Shown here: positions 1,252 through 6,852 of the stretch, one piece after another
How positions within the stretch are numbered: position 1 is the stretch's first letter
How the letters are laid out: every line of letters starts with the position of its first letter
Assembly: GCA_002792395.1 (NCBI GenBank)
Contig: PFOG01000080.1
Location: 1-6,852, forward strand
Source of the DNA: Candidatus Portnoybacteria bacterium CG_4_10_14_0_2_um_filter_44_20
GTDB taxonomy: Bacteria; Patescibacteriota; Minisyncoccia; Portnoybacterales; GCA-002795985
DNA length: 6,852 bases
Direction of reading: 5' to 3'
Notes under the pieces: generated by a model
Seen by the model: the letters and a program-made list of their open reading frames with translations, nothing else
The model's database searches: none
What the model was told of the DNA's origin: nothing
Made by a program: the position numbers and the translations under genes

Positions 1252-1265
1252 AATATTCCTACGCT
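1252..1265 (+). repeat. Truncated left-half copy (R0) of the palindromic repeat
   Basis: AATATTCCTACGCT resembles the left half of the full repeat (AATATTTCCACGCT) and stops in the middle of the palindrome, directly abutting copy R1. It looks like a degenerate or truncated fifth copy. Confidence 0.4.
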
Positions 1266-1305
1266 TTCAAATATTTCCACGCTATCGCGTAATTTTCTGT
1301 GATTT
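1266..1305 (+). repeat. Palindrome-centred repeat copy R1
   Basis: The copy begins TCAAATATTTCC, continues with core ACGCTATCGCGT (1279-1290, one base off the perfect palindrome) and ends AATTTTCTGTGATTT. All copies share this order and orientation: an AT-rich left arm with AAATATTT, a 12-bp core, then an AATTTTCTGTGA right arm. Confidence 0.85.
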
Positions 1306-1320
1306 CCTAGCCCAGCCAAA

Positions 1321-1360
1321 TTCAAATATTTTCATGCTATAGCGTAGTTTTCTTTGATTT
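1321..1360 (+). repeat. Palindrome-centred repeat copy R2
   Basis: Left arm TTCAAATATTTTC, core ATGCTATAGCGT (1334-1345, one base changed) and right arm AGTTTTCTTTGATTT. It follows R1 after a 15-base non-repeated spacer (core-to-core distance 55) and abuts R3. Confidence 0.85.
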
Positions 1361-1398
1361 TACAGATTTCCACGCTATAGCGTATTTTTATGTGAAAT
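1361..1398 (+). repeat. Palindrome-centred repeat copy R3
   Basis: The core ACGCTATAGCGT (1372-1383) is a perfect 12-bp palindrome. The left arm is shortened (CAGATTTCC) and the right arm is ATTTTTATGTGAAAT. The core lies 38 bases after that of R2, so the two are nearly in tandem. Its right arm TGTGAA occupies the expected -35 position of the downstream gene's promoter. Confidence 0.85.
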
Positions 1399-1410
1399 CC
1401 GGTTGGTTTG

Positions 1411-1419
1411 TGTTATGCT
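1411..1419 (+). promoter_or_regulatory. Probable extended -10 promoter of the PaaX/Cas2-like gene
   Basis: TGTTATGCT contains TATGCT (1414-1419) preceded by a TGn extension. Seventeen bases upstream, the -35 position (1391-1396) is TGTGAA, the right arm of repeat R3, and not a good consensus. A protein bound at the R3 palindrome would overlap or flank RNA polymerase here, making autoregulation plausible. Confidence 0.4.
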
Positions 1420-1423
1420 AGCA

Positions 1424-1439
1424 AAGGAGAAGATAAGGG
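1424..1439 (+). promoter_or_regulatory. Ribosome binding sites leaving the start codon ambiguous
   Basis: AAGGAG (1424-1429) lies 13 bases before the TTG at 1443, and AAGGG (1435-1439) lies 12 bases before the ATG at 1452 but only three before the TTG. Neither pairing is ideal, so the protein may start MKNMFEQ at 1443 or MFEQ at 1452. Confidence 0.45.
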
Positions 1440-1442
1440 TAG

Positions 1443-2033
1443 TTGAAAAACATGTTTGAGCAACGCGACAAAAAATCAAAGATTCAAATCTCCAGCAAGG
1501 ACATCCTGCAATTCCTGGGCATTGGCGGTGTTTTGGTTGCGGCCGTTGTAGCGCCTAATGCCATCCAGGCCTTCAAATTTTTATTGAAAGACGAGGAGTA
1601 CGTTTCCTGGGAAAAATTCAATAAATCCAGGGCCAGACAATACGTCGGCCAGCTGGAAAAACAAGACCTGATAAAACGCTCGATCAAAGATCATCAACGA
1701 TGCTATGTTTTGACCGACAAGGGAAGGAGATTTGTTCTAAAACAGGATGTCAATAAGCTCCAATTAAACAGGCCGAAAAAATGGGATGGGCGATGGCGGA
1801 TCGTCATTTTCGATATCCCGGAGAAAAAGAAGGCGGCGCGCGACGCGCTTCGCCAAAAATTCACCAAGATAGGAATGTTCCAGTTGCAGAAAAGCGTGTT
1901 TGTTTATCCTTTCGATTGCAAAAAGGAGGTCGATTTCGTGTCGGATTATTTCGAGGTTGCCAATGACATTTTATACCTTGAGGCAAGGGTCCACGAAGTA
2001 GAAAAGCAGTTGAGGAATTTTTTCAATCTTTAA
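1443..2033 (+). CDS. PaaX-like winged-helix protein with Cas2-fold domain
   Basis: This 196-residue protein has three parts. After a basic tail, residues 20-45 are unusually hydrophobic (FLGIGGVLVAAVVAPNAIQ). Residues about 46-105 fit a winged-helix DNA-binding fold, ending in the wing-like YVLTDKGRRFVLK. Residues 114-185 match the Cas2-like central domain of PaaX regulators: WRIVIFDIPEKKK with Asp124 at the Cas2 metal-binding position, then an R-x-x-L helix, and QLQKSVFVYPF corresponding to the Cas2 Q-x-S-V-F strand. The ligand-binding PaaX C-terminal domain of the approximately 300-residue phenylacetate repressors is missing. No cas1, cas genes or CRISPR are present, so it is not an adaptation Cas2. 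The gene is bracketed by direct palindromic repeats, three upstream and one downstream, suggesting that it binds them. Its role could be autoregulator or, more speculatively, nuclease or recombinase partner of the repeats. Confidence 0.8.
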   Translation: MKNMFEQRDKKSKIQISSKDILQFLGIGGVLVAAVVAPNAIQAFKFLLKDEEYVSWEKFNKSRARQYVGQLEKQDLIKRSIKDHQRCYVLTDKGRRFVLKQDVNKLQLNRPKKWDGRWRIVIFDIPEKKKAARDALRQKFTKIGMFQLQKSVFVYPFDCKKEVDFVSDYFEVANDILYLEARVHEVEKQLRNFFNL

Positions 2034-2057
2034 TGCCCTGTCACTCGTCCTGCGATC

Positions 2058-2095
2058 TCAAATATTTTAACGCTATAGCGTAATTTTCTGTGAAA
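2058..2095 (+). repeat. Palindrome-centred repeat copy R4, downstream of the gene
   Basis: Left arm TCAAATATTTTA, perfect core ACGCTATAGCGT (2070-2081) and right arm AATTTTCTGTGAAA. It is in the same orientation as R1-R3 and starts 24 bases after the stop codon of the PaaX/Cas2-like gene. No other copy was seen in the remaining 4.7 kb. Confidence 0.85.
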
Positions 2096-2279: not shown

Positions 2280-2750
2280 ATGGCCAAAAAAGCATTTCAG
2301 GATTATTATCCGGACGACTTGAGTCATTGTTACGGATGCGGACGGTTGAATCCGCACGGGTTGCATATCAAGAGCTATTGGGACGGCGATGAAACGGTGG
2401 CTGTGTTTATTCCAAAACCGTATCATGTGGCGATTCCCGGTTATGTCTACGGCGGACTGATCGCTTCCATTATCGATTGCCATGCGACTGGAACTGCTTC
2501 GGCGGCCGCTTATCGCCGGGAGGGACGGATGATGGGCACTGATCCATCCCTGCGTTTCGTTACCGCATCGCTTCATATCGATTATTTATGGCCGACTCCG
2601 ATCGGTTGCCGGCTGGAATTAAGGGGACAAATCGATGAAGTCAAGGGCCGCAAGGTCGTAGTGACGGTTACTTTGTCGGTAGGTGGAAAAATATGTGCCC
2701 GCGGTAAAGTGATTGCCGTGCAGATGCCGGACGATTTAGTAACCAAATAA
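2280..2750 (+). CDS. PaaI-family hotdog acyl-CoA thioesterase
   Basis: This 156-residue single hotdog-domain protein probably hydrolyses acyl- or aryl-CoA thioesters in the cytoplasm. An N-terminal C-Y-G-C-G-x-x-N-P-H-G-L segment (17-28) is typical of a PaaI-like subgroup. The central hotdog helix region VYGGLIASIIDCHATG (56-71) corresponds to the family's H-G-G...D motif; Tyr57 replaces the usual His and Asp66 is the likely catalytic acid. Strands follow at ASLHIDYLWPTPIG (96-109), matching 'V-x-Y-x-R-P-x-P-x-G', and KVVVTVTLSVGGKICARGK (125-143). Length is normal for the family. The ATG at 2280 has AAGGAG seven bases upstream. It stands alone between its own probable promoter and a bidirectional terminator, convergent with the ETF operon. 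Substrate cannot be told; the ETF genes suggest fatty- or aromatic-acyl-CoA metabolism. Confidence 0.85.
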   Translation: MAKKAFQDYYPDDLSHCYGCGRLNPHGLHIKSYWDGDETVAVFIPKPYHVAIPGYVYGGLIASIIDCHATGTASAAAYRREGRMMGTDPSLRFVTASLHIDYLWPTPIGCRLELRGQIDEVKGRKVVVTVTLSVGGKICARGKVIAVQMPDDLVTK

Positions 2751-2752
2751 AT

Positions 2753-2788
2753 AAAAAATGGCTCACATTGCTGTGAGCCGTTATTTTT
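2753..2788. terminator. Bidirectional intrinsic terminator between convergent genes
   Basis: GGCTCACA (2760-2767) pairs with TGTGAGCC (2772-2779) around TTGC. On the plus strand it is followed by GTTATTTTTA, closing the thioesterase transcript. On the minus strand it is followed by ATTTTTTATTTA, closing the ETF/oxidoreductase operon, whose last stop codon is at 2797-2799. Confidence 0.9.
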
Positions 2789-2796
2789 ACTTAAAT

Positions 2797-4849
2797 TTAC
2801 TCTTCTGTTTCTTCTATGGACCGAAGAAACAATTCGGCGATATCAAGGACCTCTACCGTCTCTTCTTTGTTCTGCGCCTTGAGGCCGTCCTCGAACATGG
2901 TGGTACAGTATGGACAGCAGACTCCGACAATCTCAGGGTCTTGGGCCAGCGCTTGGTCGGCGCGAGCCTCATTGATCTTTTGATGCCCCCCCCAGAGTCT
3001 CTTCCATCCACATCCGACCTCCGCCCGCGCCGCAACAAAAGGATTTGTTACGACAGCGTTCCATTTCTTTCAGGCGCAGACCCGGGATCGATCTTAAGAT
3101 CTCGCGCGGCTCTTCATATATATTGTTATAACGGCCCAAGTAGCAGGAATCGTGAAAAGTGATCTGCTTATCCAGGCGCCGCCGCGGCTTCAGCTTACCT
3201 TCGTTTAACAGCTGATGTAAGAGCTCTGAGTGGTGAAGGACTTCCCAGTTGCCGCCGAATTGGGGATATTCGTTCTTCAGGGTATTGTAGCAGTGGGGGC
3301 AGGTAGTAATTATCTTTTTGACTCCATGGCCATTGATAAGCTCGGTCAGTTCGGTGGCCATTGATTGGAATAAATATTCGTTGCCCAGACGCCGAGCGGT
3401 CTCGCCACAACACCTTTCTTCAGCCCCCAGGATGCCGAAACTGACTCCGGCCTGCTTGAGAAGCTTGACCATGGCAGCTGTCACTTTTTTGGCCCGCGTG
3501 TCGAAACTGCCGGTACAACCGACGTAGAGCAAATATTCCACCTCCGGATTTTCAGCCAGGGTTTGAACATCAAGTCCCTTGGCCCAATCGCCCCGGCTGG
3601 CAAAGGCCAGACCCCAGGGATTGGAGTTGGTTTCCCAGTTACGCAGGACCGTTTGGACCTCCAGAGAAAAATTGCTTTCCATAAGCACCAGGTAACGGCG
3701 CATATCCACCAGCTTCGGAATGTGTTCAATGAACACCGGGCAATGCTCCATGCAGTTTCCGCAAGTAGTACAAGACCAGATCTCGTCCGTCAGGCAGACT
3801 TCGCCCGCCAGAGCCTTTTTTAACTCTGTTGCCGCGCATCCCTCCGGATTAATTTTCGCGTCCGTTAACAGTTTGCCCTTGGCCAGCAGATGCTTTTTGA
3901 GATTATGGATCATTTCTTTGGGGCTCAAGGGTTTGCCGGTTAGGGCCGCCGGACAATTCTCGGAACAGCGGCCGCATTCGGTGCAGGCACAAAGGTCCAG
4001 GAGCTGCTTCCAGGTGAATTCCTCGATCTTAGAGACGCCGTAGGTCTCCACCGATTCATCCTCCAGGTCCATTTTGGAGAGCTCGCCGATAGGCCGGAAT
4101 CTGCGGAAGAAGACATTGGGAATGGCGCCTAAGATATGCAGGTGTTTGGAAAAAGGAACATAAACCAGAAAGCCCAGGATAACCAGCGTGTGGATCCACC
4201 AGAAAAAACTATACCAGACTACCAGGCTTGCTTCCGACAGACGGGCAAACAGTCCTGAAACGGCCACCGAAATGAAAGCGGCTGAAGGAAAGTAGCGGCC
4301 GGGCTCAAGCTGGGTCAGGCGATATTCCGCGCCCCGGGCCCCGAACAAGCAGGCAACTAACAGCAGGATCAAGCTGATGATGATACAGGCATCCAGGTTG
4401 GCCGCCTTTTGGTCGGAAAATCGCAACCGTTCCGGTCTGAGCACAAAGCGGCGGTAAAGCGAAACAACCAGGGCAAGAACCACGCCAGCGCACAACAAGT
4501 CCTGAAGCAGATAAAGAATCGCGGTCAGCGGCTTTCCGATAACCTTCCAGTAGGCAAAGCCGTGATAGAGGCCGACTCCAAAGGTTTCCAGGCTGCCGAT
4601 GGTAATGATGATAAAACCCCAAAAAATTAAGAAGTGGCCCCAGCCGGCGGGCTCTTGAATGACTCGCCGCTGTCCGAAGACAAAAGTGGCCACGCCCCGC
4701 AGGCGCCGTCCGATCTGATCGAAGCGGTCTTCCGGCTGGCCCAGCCGCAGAATGCGGTAGAGCTTGTAGACGGTGAATGAAAAGAATCCGAGCGCCGCGA
4801 AAAAGATAAGCGCAAAGATAATATTGGCGGGAAAATATCCCGGTTGCAT
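2797..4849 (-). CDS. ETF-linked membrane Fe-S oxidoreductase (NarI/HdrD-like), frameshifted
   Basis: Read through one frame change, this encodes about 683 residues, normal for ETF:menaquinone oxidoreductases. The N-terminal 240 residues hold about six membrane spans of NarI type, with candidate haem b ligands His72, His96, His220, His236 and His238. Two [4Fe-4S] motifs follow: C289-x2-C292-x2-C295-x3-C299-P and C360-x2-C363-x2-C366-x3-C370-P. Two CCG domains come next, with C445, C480-C481-G, C517 and C520 in the first and C569 and C605-C606-G in the second. The frame then stops early at 2969, just after a G8 run (C8 on the plus strand, 2986-2993). In the other frame the expected tail continues, with INEARADQAL, VCCPYCTTMFEDGLK and EVLDIAELF, to TAA at 2797. 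The ATG has GGGAGG eight bases upstream. The likely role is to pass electrons from the EtfAB encoded upstream to menaquinone. Confidence 0.88.
2986..2993 (-). other. Homopolymer C8/G8 run at the oxidoreductase frame break
   Basis: Eight consecutive C (G on the coding strand) sit exactly where the frame switches. With seven, the frame reads on as ETLGGHQKINEAR into a conserved tail; with eight it gives GGASKDQ and a stop. The remaining second CCG-domain cysteines lie beyond this point, so the truncated product would lack part of that cluster site. Confidence 0.9.
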
Positions 4850-4881
4850 AACCGCACCTCCCGTTTCATTAAGATTCTGAC

Positions 4882-4909
4882 AAAAAGGCGCTCTATTATT
4901 TTGAGCGCC
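4882..4909 (-). terminator. Intrinsic terminator or attenuator between etfA and the oxidoreductase gene
   Basis: On the minus strand GGCGCTC (4909-4903) pairs with GAGCGCC (4893-4887) around a nine-base AT-rich loop, followed directly by TTTTTG. It lies 22 bases after the etfA stop and upstream of the oxidoreductase start. It should lower readthrough into the membrane subunit gene, or separate the operon into two transcripts if an unseen promoter lies in the remaining 30 bases. Confidence 0.8.
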
Positions 4910-4931
4910 ACAGGCAATTCCGTCTGGTTTA

Positions 4932-5921
4932 TCAGCCGCAAGCCGCCTTCAGTTTTTTCACTTCTTTGATGAAGGCCGGAATGAACTGAAAAAGATCTTC
5001 CACCACGCCGTAGTCAGCCTTGCTGAAGATGGGCGCCTCCGGGTCTTTATTGATCGCCACGATGAATTTACTGGAGCCCATACCGGCCAAATGCTGGATG
5101 GCTCCGGAGATGCCGCAAGCGATATAAAGGGTCGGAGTAACTACCTTGCCAGTCTGCCCCACCTGATCCGCGTGCGGGCGCCAGCCGGCGTCCACCGCCG
5201 GGCGGGAAGCTCCCACCGCGCCGCCCAAAAGCTGTGCCAGTTCTTCCAGAAGGGCAAAATTCTTGGGATCCTTCATGCCGCGCCCTCCCGAAACAATGAC
5301 CTGCGCTTCGGCGAGATCAACCTTGGTCTCGGAGGCTTCGACCTTCACTATCCGGCTCTTGACGACTGCCGGCAGGGTAATGGCCGGAGTTTCCACCGAG
5401 GCGCTTTTTGAAGCATCGATCAGTGAACAGGCCATCACATTGGGCCGGCAAGAGGCCATCTGCGGATAAGAGCCATTGGTCCAGGCGCACCAGGCGTAGG
5501 TCTTGCCGGCATAGACCGGCCGCTTCGCCTTGAGCGCTCCGTTTTCGATCAGCAGTTCAGTGCAGTCTTGCGCTAAACCGGCGCCCAAGCGCGCTGCCAG
5601 CCGGGCACTCAAATCTTTTCCGTTCGCGGATGCCGCGCTAAGCACCACTTTGGGCTGCACACTTCGTAAGATTTCGGCCAGCACCGGCACGTGGATTTCG
5701 GCCAGGTAATCCTTCAGCTCCGGTTGGTCAATCAGATAGACTTTTTTGACCCCATACTGGCCCAATGTCGCGGCTTCGGCTGTCACACCATCTCCTAAAA
5801 CAATGGCAGTAAGAGGCTCGCCTAAAGCGTCAGCCAACCGCCGGCCTTCGCTGGCTATCTCAAAAGAGACTTGCCGGAAAGCGCCATTACGGAATTCAGC
5901 GATTATACATACCCCCGTCAT
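4932..5921 (-). CDS. etfA: Electron transfer flavoprotein alpha subunit
   Basis: The 329-residue protein is the FAD-binding subunit of the ETF heterodimer. The N-terminal alpha/beta domain (1-190) starts MTGVCIIAEF. The C-terminal FAD domain carries the classic signature in order: VSGGRGMKDPKNF (210-222), GASRPAVDAGW (237-247), QVGQTGKVVTP (253-263), CGISGAIQHLAGM (269-281) and INKDPEAPIF (290-299), then YGVVEDLFQFIP. I chose the ATG at 5921 because an excellent AAGGAGGA (5933-5926) lies four bases upstream; an in-frame ATG at 5954 would lie inside etfB, lack a ribosome site and add 11 unconserved residues. The etfB stop overlaps this ribosome site, so the two genes are translationally coupled. 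ETF accepts electrons from acyl-CoA or related dehydrogenases and hands them to the membrane oxidoreductase encoded next. Confidence 0.95.
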   Translation of the reverse strand: MTGVCIIAEFRNGAFRQVSFEIASEGRRLADALGEPLTAIVLGDGVTAEAATLGQYGVKKVYLIDQPELKDYLAEIHVPVLAEILRSVQPKVVLSAASANGKDLSARLAARLGAGLAQDCTELLIENGALKAKRPVYAGKTYAWCAWTNGSYPQMASCRPNVMACSLIDASKSASVETPAITLPAVVKSRIVKVEASETKVDLAEAQVIVSGGRGMKDPKNFALLEELAQLLGGAVGASRPAVDAGWRPHADQVGQTGKVVTPTLYIACGISGAIQHLAGMGSSKFIVAINKDPEAPIFSKADYGVVEDLFQFIPAFIKEVKKLKAACG

Positions 5922-5931
5922 AGTCTCCTCC

Positions 5932-6723
5932 TTAAATGACATTGGCTTCTTCATGGAGTAAACGGACCAACTCTTTAGCCTTAGCGGCAGTGTCTCCCGA
6001 TATCATCAATCCTGACTGCCGCGGAACCGGCATCTTCAGCGAGACAACCATGATCTTAGCGGCAGCGGCCCCCACTTGCTCCGGCGACAGTTCCAGGTCC
6101 GCAAGCTTTTTGACTTCCAGCGGTTTCTTTTTGGCCTTCATAATGCCGGGTAACGACGCATAGCGCGGCTGCCAAATCGCGTGGGCGCCGCCGAGGGTGA
6201 TCAGGGCCGGCATGGGGGATTCCAATTGTACCTTCGCCCCTTCGATCGGCCGACTGATCTTGATCAACCCATCCGCCATTTCGATGGTCACCGCCAAACC
6301 CAGATGGGGGATATCCAGAAGTTCCGCCACCATGATGCCCACCTGGTTTTCGTCGTCATCCACAGCCCGATGGCCGCAGAAGATGAGATCATGAGGAATT
6401 TGTTTCAGGGCCGCGGCAAGAACCCTGGCCTTGCCCAAGGCATCGCTGCCTTCGGCGGCCGGATCATCCACCAGAACTCCTTTATCGGCACCCATAGCCA
6501 GAGCCGCGCGAATGGATTCCACCATACGCTGAGGCCCGAGGCTGAGAATGGTGACATTGGCGCCCTGGCTGTCCTTGAGACGCAGGGCTGCCTCGACCGC
6601 ATATTCATCGTAGGGATTAATAACCCATTTAATACTACTGGTGGCAATAGATTTGCCGTCCTCTCCGATCTTAATGACAGTCTCTGTGTCGGGCACCTGT
6701 TTGAGCAAAACTATGATTTCCAA
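5932..6723 (-). CDS. etfB: Electron transfer flavoprotein beta subunit
   Basis: The 263-residue length is normal for EtfB. The start VLLKQVPDT (5-13), NPYDEYAVEAALRLK (36-50), MGADKGVLVDD (77-87) and PRYASLPGIMKAKKKPLE (186-203) are hallmark segments; the last contains the recognition loop that docks partner dehydrogenases. The nucleotide-binding region reads CGHRAVDDDENQVG (116-129), in place of the more usual G-x-x-A-x-D-G/D-D-T-x-Q-V-G; the Thr-x pair is replaced by Glu-Asn, which may alter AMP or second-FAD binding. Translation starts at a TTG with AAGGAG (6735-6730) six bases upstream. It is the first gene of the etfB-etfA-oxidoreductase operon, only ten bases before the etfA start. Whether this ETF is bifurcating cannot be decided; the quinone-linked partner favours a non-bifurcating or quinone-directed role. 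Confidence 0.95.
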   Translation of the reverse strand: MEIIVLLKQVPDTETVIKIGEDGKSIATSSIKWVINPYDEYAVEAALRLKDSQGANVTILSLGPQRMVESIRAALAMGADKGVLVDDPAAEGSDALGKARVLAAALKQIPHDLIFCGHRAVDDDENQVGIMVAELLDIPHLGLAVTIEMADGLIKISRPIEGAKVQLESPMPALITLGGAHAIWQPRYASLPGIMKAKKKPLEVKKLADLELSPEQVGAAAAKIMVVSLKMPVPRQSGLMISGDTAAKAKELVRLLHEEANVI

Positions 6724-6749
6724 TTTGTTCTCCTTCTTTTCTATTTTTT

Positions 6750-6779
6750 ATTCAAATGTTCGCGATTTCGCATTTGAAT
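6750..6779. repeat. Perfect 9-bp inverted repeat between etfB and the IS30 gene
   Basis: ATTCAAATG (6750-6758) and CATTTGAAT (6771-6779) are perfect reverse complements with a 12-base centre TTCGCGATTTCG. It lies 27 bases upstream of the etfB TTG and 25 bases before the ATG of the right IS30 gene. It may belong to the IS30 left end or be an operator for the etf operon. There is no T-run of terminator type on either exit side. Confidence 0.6.
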
Positions 6780-6788
6780 CCGAAAATT

Positions 6789-6797
6789 TGATAGAAT
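6789..6797 (+). promoter_or_regulatory. Possible extended -10 element for the right IS30 transposase gene
   Basis: TGATAGAAT contains TAGAAT (6792-6797) preceded by a TGn extension and ends six bases before the ATG at 6804. The message would be leaderless or nearly so, as at 415-429. No clear -35 box is seen. Confidence 0.3.
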
Positions 6798-6803
6798 GGC
6801 AGT

Positions 6804-6852
6804 ATGAAAAAAAACTAAAAAGTTCTCGCATCTTTCCAAAAGCGAGCGCCAC
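6804..6852 (+). pseudogene. IS30-family transposase, N-terminal fragment, frame broken at A8
   Basis: From 6808 to the window end one frame encodes KKTKKFSHLSKSERH, the typical basic N-terminus of IS30-family transposases, with the H-L-S-K-x-E-R motif that opens the helix-turn-helix region. The only nearby ATG, at 6804, is one base out of frame, because eight A follow it; seven would give MKKTKKFSHLSKSERH. As written, the ATG frame ends after four codons, and the transposase frame is preceded by TGA at 6805. A sequencing error or an inactivating indel are both possible. The rest lies beyond the window. It points in the same direction as the IS30 tail at 1-73. Confidence 0.65.

Follow-up and report, generated by a model that had tools for sequence, protein, structure and literature searches.

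Matched copies of a 36-bp repeat bracket genes for a PaaX/Cas2-fold protein and suggest a gene-repeat unit

Introduction

Two described systems tie a protein to palindromic DNA beside its own gene. In Escherichia coli, PaaX acts at the widely spaced site TGATTC(N27)GAATCA and represses its own promoter, as set out in the portion of PMC9493321 drawn on here. The RAYTs, or REP-associated tyrosine transposases, are encoded between two inverted REPs; perfect REP copies number 37-427 per genome in Stenotrophomonas, and the 3' ends of RAYT genes are swept into REP clusters called BIMEs (Nunvar 2010, PMC2817692, in the parts used here). The operator of T. thermophilus TTHA0973 was considered as a further PaaX-type precedent and set aside, because the part of its paper at hand calls TTHA0973 TetR-type.

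Here we describe a locus that shares features with both systems. The window, by which we mean the whole 6,852-nt stretch of DNA analysed, carries a gene for a PaaX/Cas2-fold protein with palindrome-centred repeats on both sides. This arrangement had been noticed in the window by the original prediction, and it is real and general across the family. The reading that we favour is a gene paired with its repeats much as in RAYT/REP, but with a PaaX/Cas2-fold protein that likely represses itself too; this unit is probably a new kind of gene-repeat element and one that spreads slowly. In a literature search at the level of titles and abstract openings, we recognised nothing that describes it.

The gene and its repeats in the window

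1267-1302, plus strand: repeat R1, 36 bp, core ACGCTATCGCGT (repeat search and core match)
1322-1357, plus strand: repeat R2, 36 bp, core ATGCTATAGCGT (repeat search and core match)
1360-1395, plus strand: repeat R3, 36 bp, nearest the gene, exact core, deviating left arm
1452-2033, plus strand: PaaX/Cas2-fold gene, 193 aa from ATG (PF20803 PaaX_M and Cas2 TIGR01573)
Within its protein: winged helix, residues ~50-100; Cas2-like domain, ~111-193; Q146-K147-S148 loop; D121
2058-2093, plus strand: repeat R4, 36 bp, downstream copy, exact core

R1-R4 form the first family in a repeat search of the window, all in direct orientation, which bears out the layout of three copies upstream and one downstream of the gene; R4 starts 25 nt past the last base of the stop codon. 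Over the whole window, the core ACGCTATAGCGT occurs exactly at 1372 and 2070 and with one mismatch at 1279 and 1334, just as two perfect and two one-off cores had been described. The sole further match at up to three mismatches lies at 5970 and has all three, in agreement with the claim that copies are absent elsewhere in the window, and none of 200 dinucleotide shuffles reached five core matches. A reported fragment is also there, a partial piece (ACGCT) that runs from 1261 into the left arm of R1. The conservation claimed for the arms stood in part: the left arm TCAAATATTT is present in three of the four copies, but it differs in R3, and the right arm is variable in R2 and R3. The length of about 39 bp did not stand, the family-wide length being 36 bp. 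As centred 36-mers, the four copies agree pairwise at 28-33 of 36 positions, and their dyad symmetry is low (10-12 of 18). Elsewhere, at 158-300, the window carries GTCATCC...GAGCGAAGGATC-type repeats, which may be REP-like.

In the Pfam scan the protein matches PF20803 PaaX_M at 79 bits (cut-off 24), and it narrowly passes NCBIfam Cas2 TIGR01573 (25.5 bits, cut-off 24.5); PF09827 Cas2 gives 17.2 bits, under the cut-off of 23.8. By fold, the protein matches E. coli PaaX best, a plain repressor, which counts against our best explanation. The PaaX equivalog TIGR02277 scores 41.5 bits, far below its cut-off of 264.55; the protein stops at residue 193, and Pfam gave no match to the C-terminal PaaX_C domain, to a recombinase domain or, at E 0.01, to an HUH/Y1 transposase domain. 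A PHROGs search returned weak matches only. D121 is invariant across 75 aligned proteins, and in our own alignment E. coli PaaX has no Asp at that position. Within the window we recognised no paa catabolic gene; the adjacent hotdog thioesterase is weakly like PaaD/PaaI (TIGR02286, 15.2 bits, cut-off 118.9). Neither a CRISPR array nor cas1 was seen in the 6.8 kb by repeat search and a scan of six ORFs.

GC content is 0.54 at 2280-6852 and 0.39 at 420-2040, and other contigs of the source genome stand at 0.40-0.45 in the stretches examined. Mis-binning or a mosaic contig is possible, given this contrast and the presence of ETF and Fe-S genes. A run of C at ~2980-2995 lies near the 3' end of the Fe-S gene (minus strand), close to the frame end.

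Homologues and samples

Among the matches listed, homologues occur in at least 91 of 286 sampled genomes of the phylum, the source genome counted, with up to 11 matches per genome. The phylum label was drawn from named homologue records: these comprise 17 loci, 16 that bear the label Patescibacteria or that of a lineage belonging there and one labelled 'uncultured bacterium'. The sample consisted of the 29 loci first returned and the next 60 in list order, plus named-record and other loci. With five left out as duplicates (one of G000 and four of G245, whose coordinates equal those of G003), its 129 loci hold 124 distinct genes or gene pieces. Gene contexts rest on simple ORF calls, and the neighbour names (exonuclease, rmuC-like, rpoB, secA, trmD, fmt, asd, uvrC, rnhB, dnaJ) are presumptive, from a look at the sequences.

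Neighbours are not conserved, 193 neighbour proteins falling into 163 clusters. A search of viral contigs gave no distinct locus, and a plasmid search gave eight partly matching records, none covering 80% of the query. Contig C17 of the source genome opens with a second, partial gene copy, which shares 73% identity across residues 63-193 and has palindromes of the window core type downstream. In G005, which is rich in paralogues, five are 60-71% identical to a sixth and the closest pair stands at 0.79. Near-identical unit copies at different places were not found, which counts against our best explanation.

A matched repeat pair brackets most homologues

To score bracketing, 460 nt of upstream and 430 nt of downstream sequence were compared for their best ungapped match, in the 115 genes flanked by 300 nt or more on each side (nine genes with short flanks were dropped). 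At a score of at least 18, a matched pair brackets 89 of the 115 homologues; the controls gave 8 of 1500 for cross-locus pairings and 14 of 309 for other ORFs from the same loci. In G005 all ten of ten paralogues are each bracketed by their own pair, and paralogues bear different repeats from one another; at a score of at least 16, the counts are 3 of 5 in G003, 5 of 5 in G004 and 1 of 1 in G006. These figures support the original proposal that gene and repeats form one unit, and they answer the check suggested with it, as most homologues examined do carry flanking palindromes. The other 26 of 115 have no pair at that score of 18, contrary to the best explanation. E. coli paaX has no downstream copy and no pair (score 11, null mean 10.7).

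The two repeats are copies of one another

Repeat anatomy was read from 95 centred pairs (score at least 16, sufficient flank), a few of them, L022 included, off-palindrome. Identity between upstream and downstream copies is 0.73-0.98 within 18 nt of the centre and 0.35-0.49 beyond; the family-wide repeat measures 36 bp and ends abruptly at +-18. It has strong dyad symmetry around the centre and again over roughly +-11 to 17, with a drop in between: the repeat is a two-box palindrome with a C-NNNN-G core. The C/G at +-3 is found in 0.90 of half-sites of the 95 upstream copies, and at 0.97 and 0.95 in 88 pairs pre-selected for that feature. Many repeats are perfect palindromes of 34-54 bp, and the centre is asymmetric in many. 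The median distance from the stop codon to the start of the downstream repeat is 20 nt over 84 pairs.

The upstream and downstream repeats are copies of one another. In fact, asymmetric middle bases are common to both in 53 of 125 cases (42%), against a mean of 4% and a maximum of 10% when copies were dealt among loci, in a test on 81 of the 95 pairs that were picked on core and boxes and placed in the better register, a choice favouring agreement. Where orientation can be resolved, 23 pairs are direct and 5 inverted. In a seven-member syntenic group, upstream and downstream copies vary in step (13 of 5040 permutations did as well).

Extra, solo and missing copies

Extra cognate copies lie nearby in 13 of 82 loci, the window and L087 included, with one hit in the control. 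L087 (genome G154) has four extra copies by one gene, with differing cores. The 12 other loci hold 15 extra copies, none within a called ORF; just 2 are as close as 30 nt to a stop codon, so the positions after stop codons reported below for six genomes are not a general rule.

Genome searches for extra copies used patterns with at most three mismatches only. Six Nomurabacteria-type genomes carry their own pair plus 0, 0, 2, 2, 2 and 3 copies, nine in total, and the control gave 0; G001 has its own pair plus 2 copies and G002 its own pair plus 0. Contexts are available for eight of the nine: four lie between convergent genes and four 2-3 nt after a stop codon (two do both), and of the remaining two, one sits 43 nt ahead of a start and the other follows a stop by 11 nt and precedes a start by 10 nt. 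The low number of copies beyond the pair (0-3 per genome) is a point against the best explanation, as is the fact that one of those between convergent genes adjoins another PaaX-like gene. In the source genome, pattern matches at up to three mismatches number 19, versus 24 for a reversed-pattern control, so only close matches were counted there. A single palindrome on C87 lies outside ORFs of at least 70 aa and has the window's left arm on both sides; another, on C146, lies within an open rnhB-like frame. At ~430-570 of L010, also on C146, the rnhB-like frame stays open despite the cognate and a second, different palindrome pair. Spread through the genome with no link to the gene, raised as a possible refutation, is not what was found: over the nine genomes searched, other copies are few and cognate.

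Some relatives differ in having the repeat or the unit. In G296, a 46-nt insert with a solo repeat sits between trmD- and rpoB-like genes; G293 is without it and its flanks align, G292 and G295 have other neighbours at this spot, and G297 gave no match. In L028, L033, L035, L036 and L037 an exonuclease and an rmuC-like gene flank the whole unit, and in L029 and L034 only one of these neighbours is visible. In three of six relatives examined (G138, G318, G169) these two genes adjoin directly, with neither the unit nor a junction repeat between them; the other three have different neighbours. One empty genome nests among occupied ones in the exonuclease tree with support of 0.47, which fits gain or loss. 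The asd-neighbour spot was matched in 3 of 6 genomes, and G292 bears another neighbour gene there. The genus of G132, where an empty site was sought, consists of one genome, and in that of G179 the search gave none, the uvrC-like neighbour of all 3 genomes having the unit beside it (L138, L139, L156).

Traces of neighbouring DNA lie at some units: a copy of roughly 20 nt from the 3' end of the gene itself lies beside the upstream repeat in L034, L033 retains a piece of the exonuclease 3' end (score 25.5, against at most 16 in 300 shuffles), and L022 has a 49-nt secA fragment. Target-site duplication as a rule was rejected, at 4 of 91 versus 0.9 expected with only L022 strong, which tells against the best explanation.

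Residue 147 varies with the repeat centre

Among 55 proteins, similarity of the Cas2-like domain tracks the core (rho 0.31, 0 of 500 permutations as good) and that of the winged helix does not (rho -0.02); both track the outer box weakly (0.08 and 0.09). No other single column is as strong as residue 147 for the central position. Over 84 genes, K or R there accompanies a central AT in 36 of 47, N accompanies AC/GT in 14 of 17, and E accompanies CG in 5 of 7, with D likewise paired with AT in 5 of 6. Between tree neighbours, a difference at residue 147 goes with a different centre in 11 of 16 pairs, whereas 6 of 26 pairs alike at residue 147 have different centres (p = 0.008). This covariation makes protein and repeat predicted partners. 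The Q-x-S loop of the Cas2-like domain is predicted to read the repeat centre and, less firmly, the winged helix to read the outer boxes. That the recognition helix reads the outer box was tried as a general rule and dropped for want of overall correlation (41 of 300 permutations as good), contrary to the best explanation; only the five most similar recognition-helix pairs agree on a mean of 6.4 of 8 outer-box bases, versus about 3.4.

Explaining the unit

To explain these results we propose that a dimer of the protein would bind the private 36-bp two-box palindrome around its own gene, the Q-x-S loop reading the centre and the winged helix the outer boxes. Upstream copies would mediate autorepression, as in E. 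coli PaaX, and the protein, by binding or nicking the repeat, would help both the repeat and the entire unit to be copied. That the protein binds its own repeat as a dimer, represses its own promoter and likely drives rare copying of repeat or unit has, in our judgement, about an even chance of being right. The autoregulated circuit named by the original prediction is plausible, given the repeat near the gene start and the PaaX precedent in the cited portion of PMC9493321.

A plain PaaX-type autorepressor, with repeats as operators, two sites strengthening repression and copying by ordinary recombination, is a serious alternative that we nevertheless hold to be somewhat improbable. By fold the protein is closest to E. 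coli PaaX, whose similarly wide site accompanies repression of its own promoter (PMC9493321, same portion). Promoter-like matches lie upstream in 46 of 88 loci, where ten shuffles gave 24-33, and 14 of the 46 place the -10 hexamer +3 to +6 from the repeat centre; in the seven-member group the unit is inherited syntenically with both copies changing together. However, the window has 2 promoter-like matches for a shuffle mean of 2.0, E. coli paaX is without the downstream copy, and DNA looping between the two sites was rejected as they show no helical phasing (p > 0.5). Moreover, 39 of 97 downstream neighbours are convergent, so autorepression alone is insufficient for the downstream copy; copies beyond the pair lie between convergent genes (4 of 8) or 2-3 nt after a stop (4 of 8), and repeat copying is left unexplained. 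The unit could also be a new class of mobile element in Patescibacteria, powered by a Cas2-fold protein, in which the Q-x-S loop would apply a K/N/E code to the palindrome centre, the invariant Asp would open the site and the repeat, or the complete unit, would be copied elsewhere; this we regard as doubtful.

The repeats could also be attachment sites, a circle of gene plus one repeat recombining with a solo repeat to leave two direct repeats. The excess of direct over inverted pairs (23 to 5), the common asymmetric centre, solo repeats that resemble empty sites and a unit present or absent at one spot among relatives all fit; yet inverted pairs do occur, the sites of paralogues differ, the three empty unit sites have no junction repeat and the Pfam scan found no recombinase domain, which makes this explanation improbable. 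Still further from our preference, and in our view very improbable, the palindromes would be RNA hairpins acting as terminators, paired with the gene incidentally. Perfect palindromes of 34-54 bp are indeed many, and 31 of 84 downstream copies begin within a span that reaches from 5 nt ahead of the stop codon's end to 10 nt past it, but many matched pairs, the window's included, are poorly palindromic, and neither a conserved C-NNNN-G core nor covariation with the protein is expected of hairpins.

Comparison with known systems

If the gene-repeat unit that we favour is real, REP/RAYT-like logic arose on an unrelated protein fold, and if the mobile-class reading were true, a stand-alone Cas2-like protein would be a self-spreading element. 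Patescibacteria genomes are very small, yet one sampled genome has 11 gene matches among those listed. The association between residue 147 and the repeat centre offers a code for recognition by a Cas2-like domain that can be put to the test, and it bears on how Cas2-fold proteins became tied to repeat DNA.

As with RAYT/REP, in the parts of PMC2817692 used here, the gene is flanked by two cognate palindromes (89 of 115) that coevolve with it, extra copies lie near the gene, and a gene 3' end can be swept up with the repeat, in BIMEs there and as ~20 nt in L034 here. The RAYT/REP logic suggested earlier thus stands as to copying, extra and solo copies and empty sites, but not as to high copy number or inverted flanks: the flanking repeats are mostly direct here (23 versus 5) and inverted in RAYTs, and the genomes searched hold 0-3 further copies where RAYT genomes have tens to hundreds. 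The protein is of the PaaX/Cas2 fold, with no HUH/Y1 domain found in the Pfam scan. We therefore do not file the unit as RAYT/REP on account of protein, orientation and copy number. With PaaX it shares the winged helix, the Cas2-like PaaX_M middle domain and a widely spaced palindrome near its own promoter, whose geometry fits the site given in the cited portion of PMC9493321 and whose binding is predicted. Unlike PaaX, it has sites on both sides of the gene, PaaX_C was not found in the protein nor paa catabolic genes in the window, and it keeps the Cas2-type Asp and the Q-x-S that E. coli PaaX is missing in our alignment. Compared with Cas2 itself, no CRISPR array or cas1 was seen in the window and the domain is fused to a winged helix; it nonetheless has the FDIP Asp and the Q-x-S motif, and narrowly passes the NCBIfam Cas2 cut-off.
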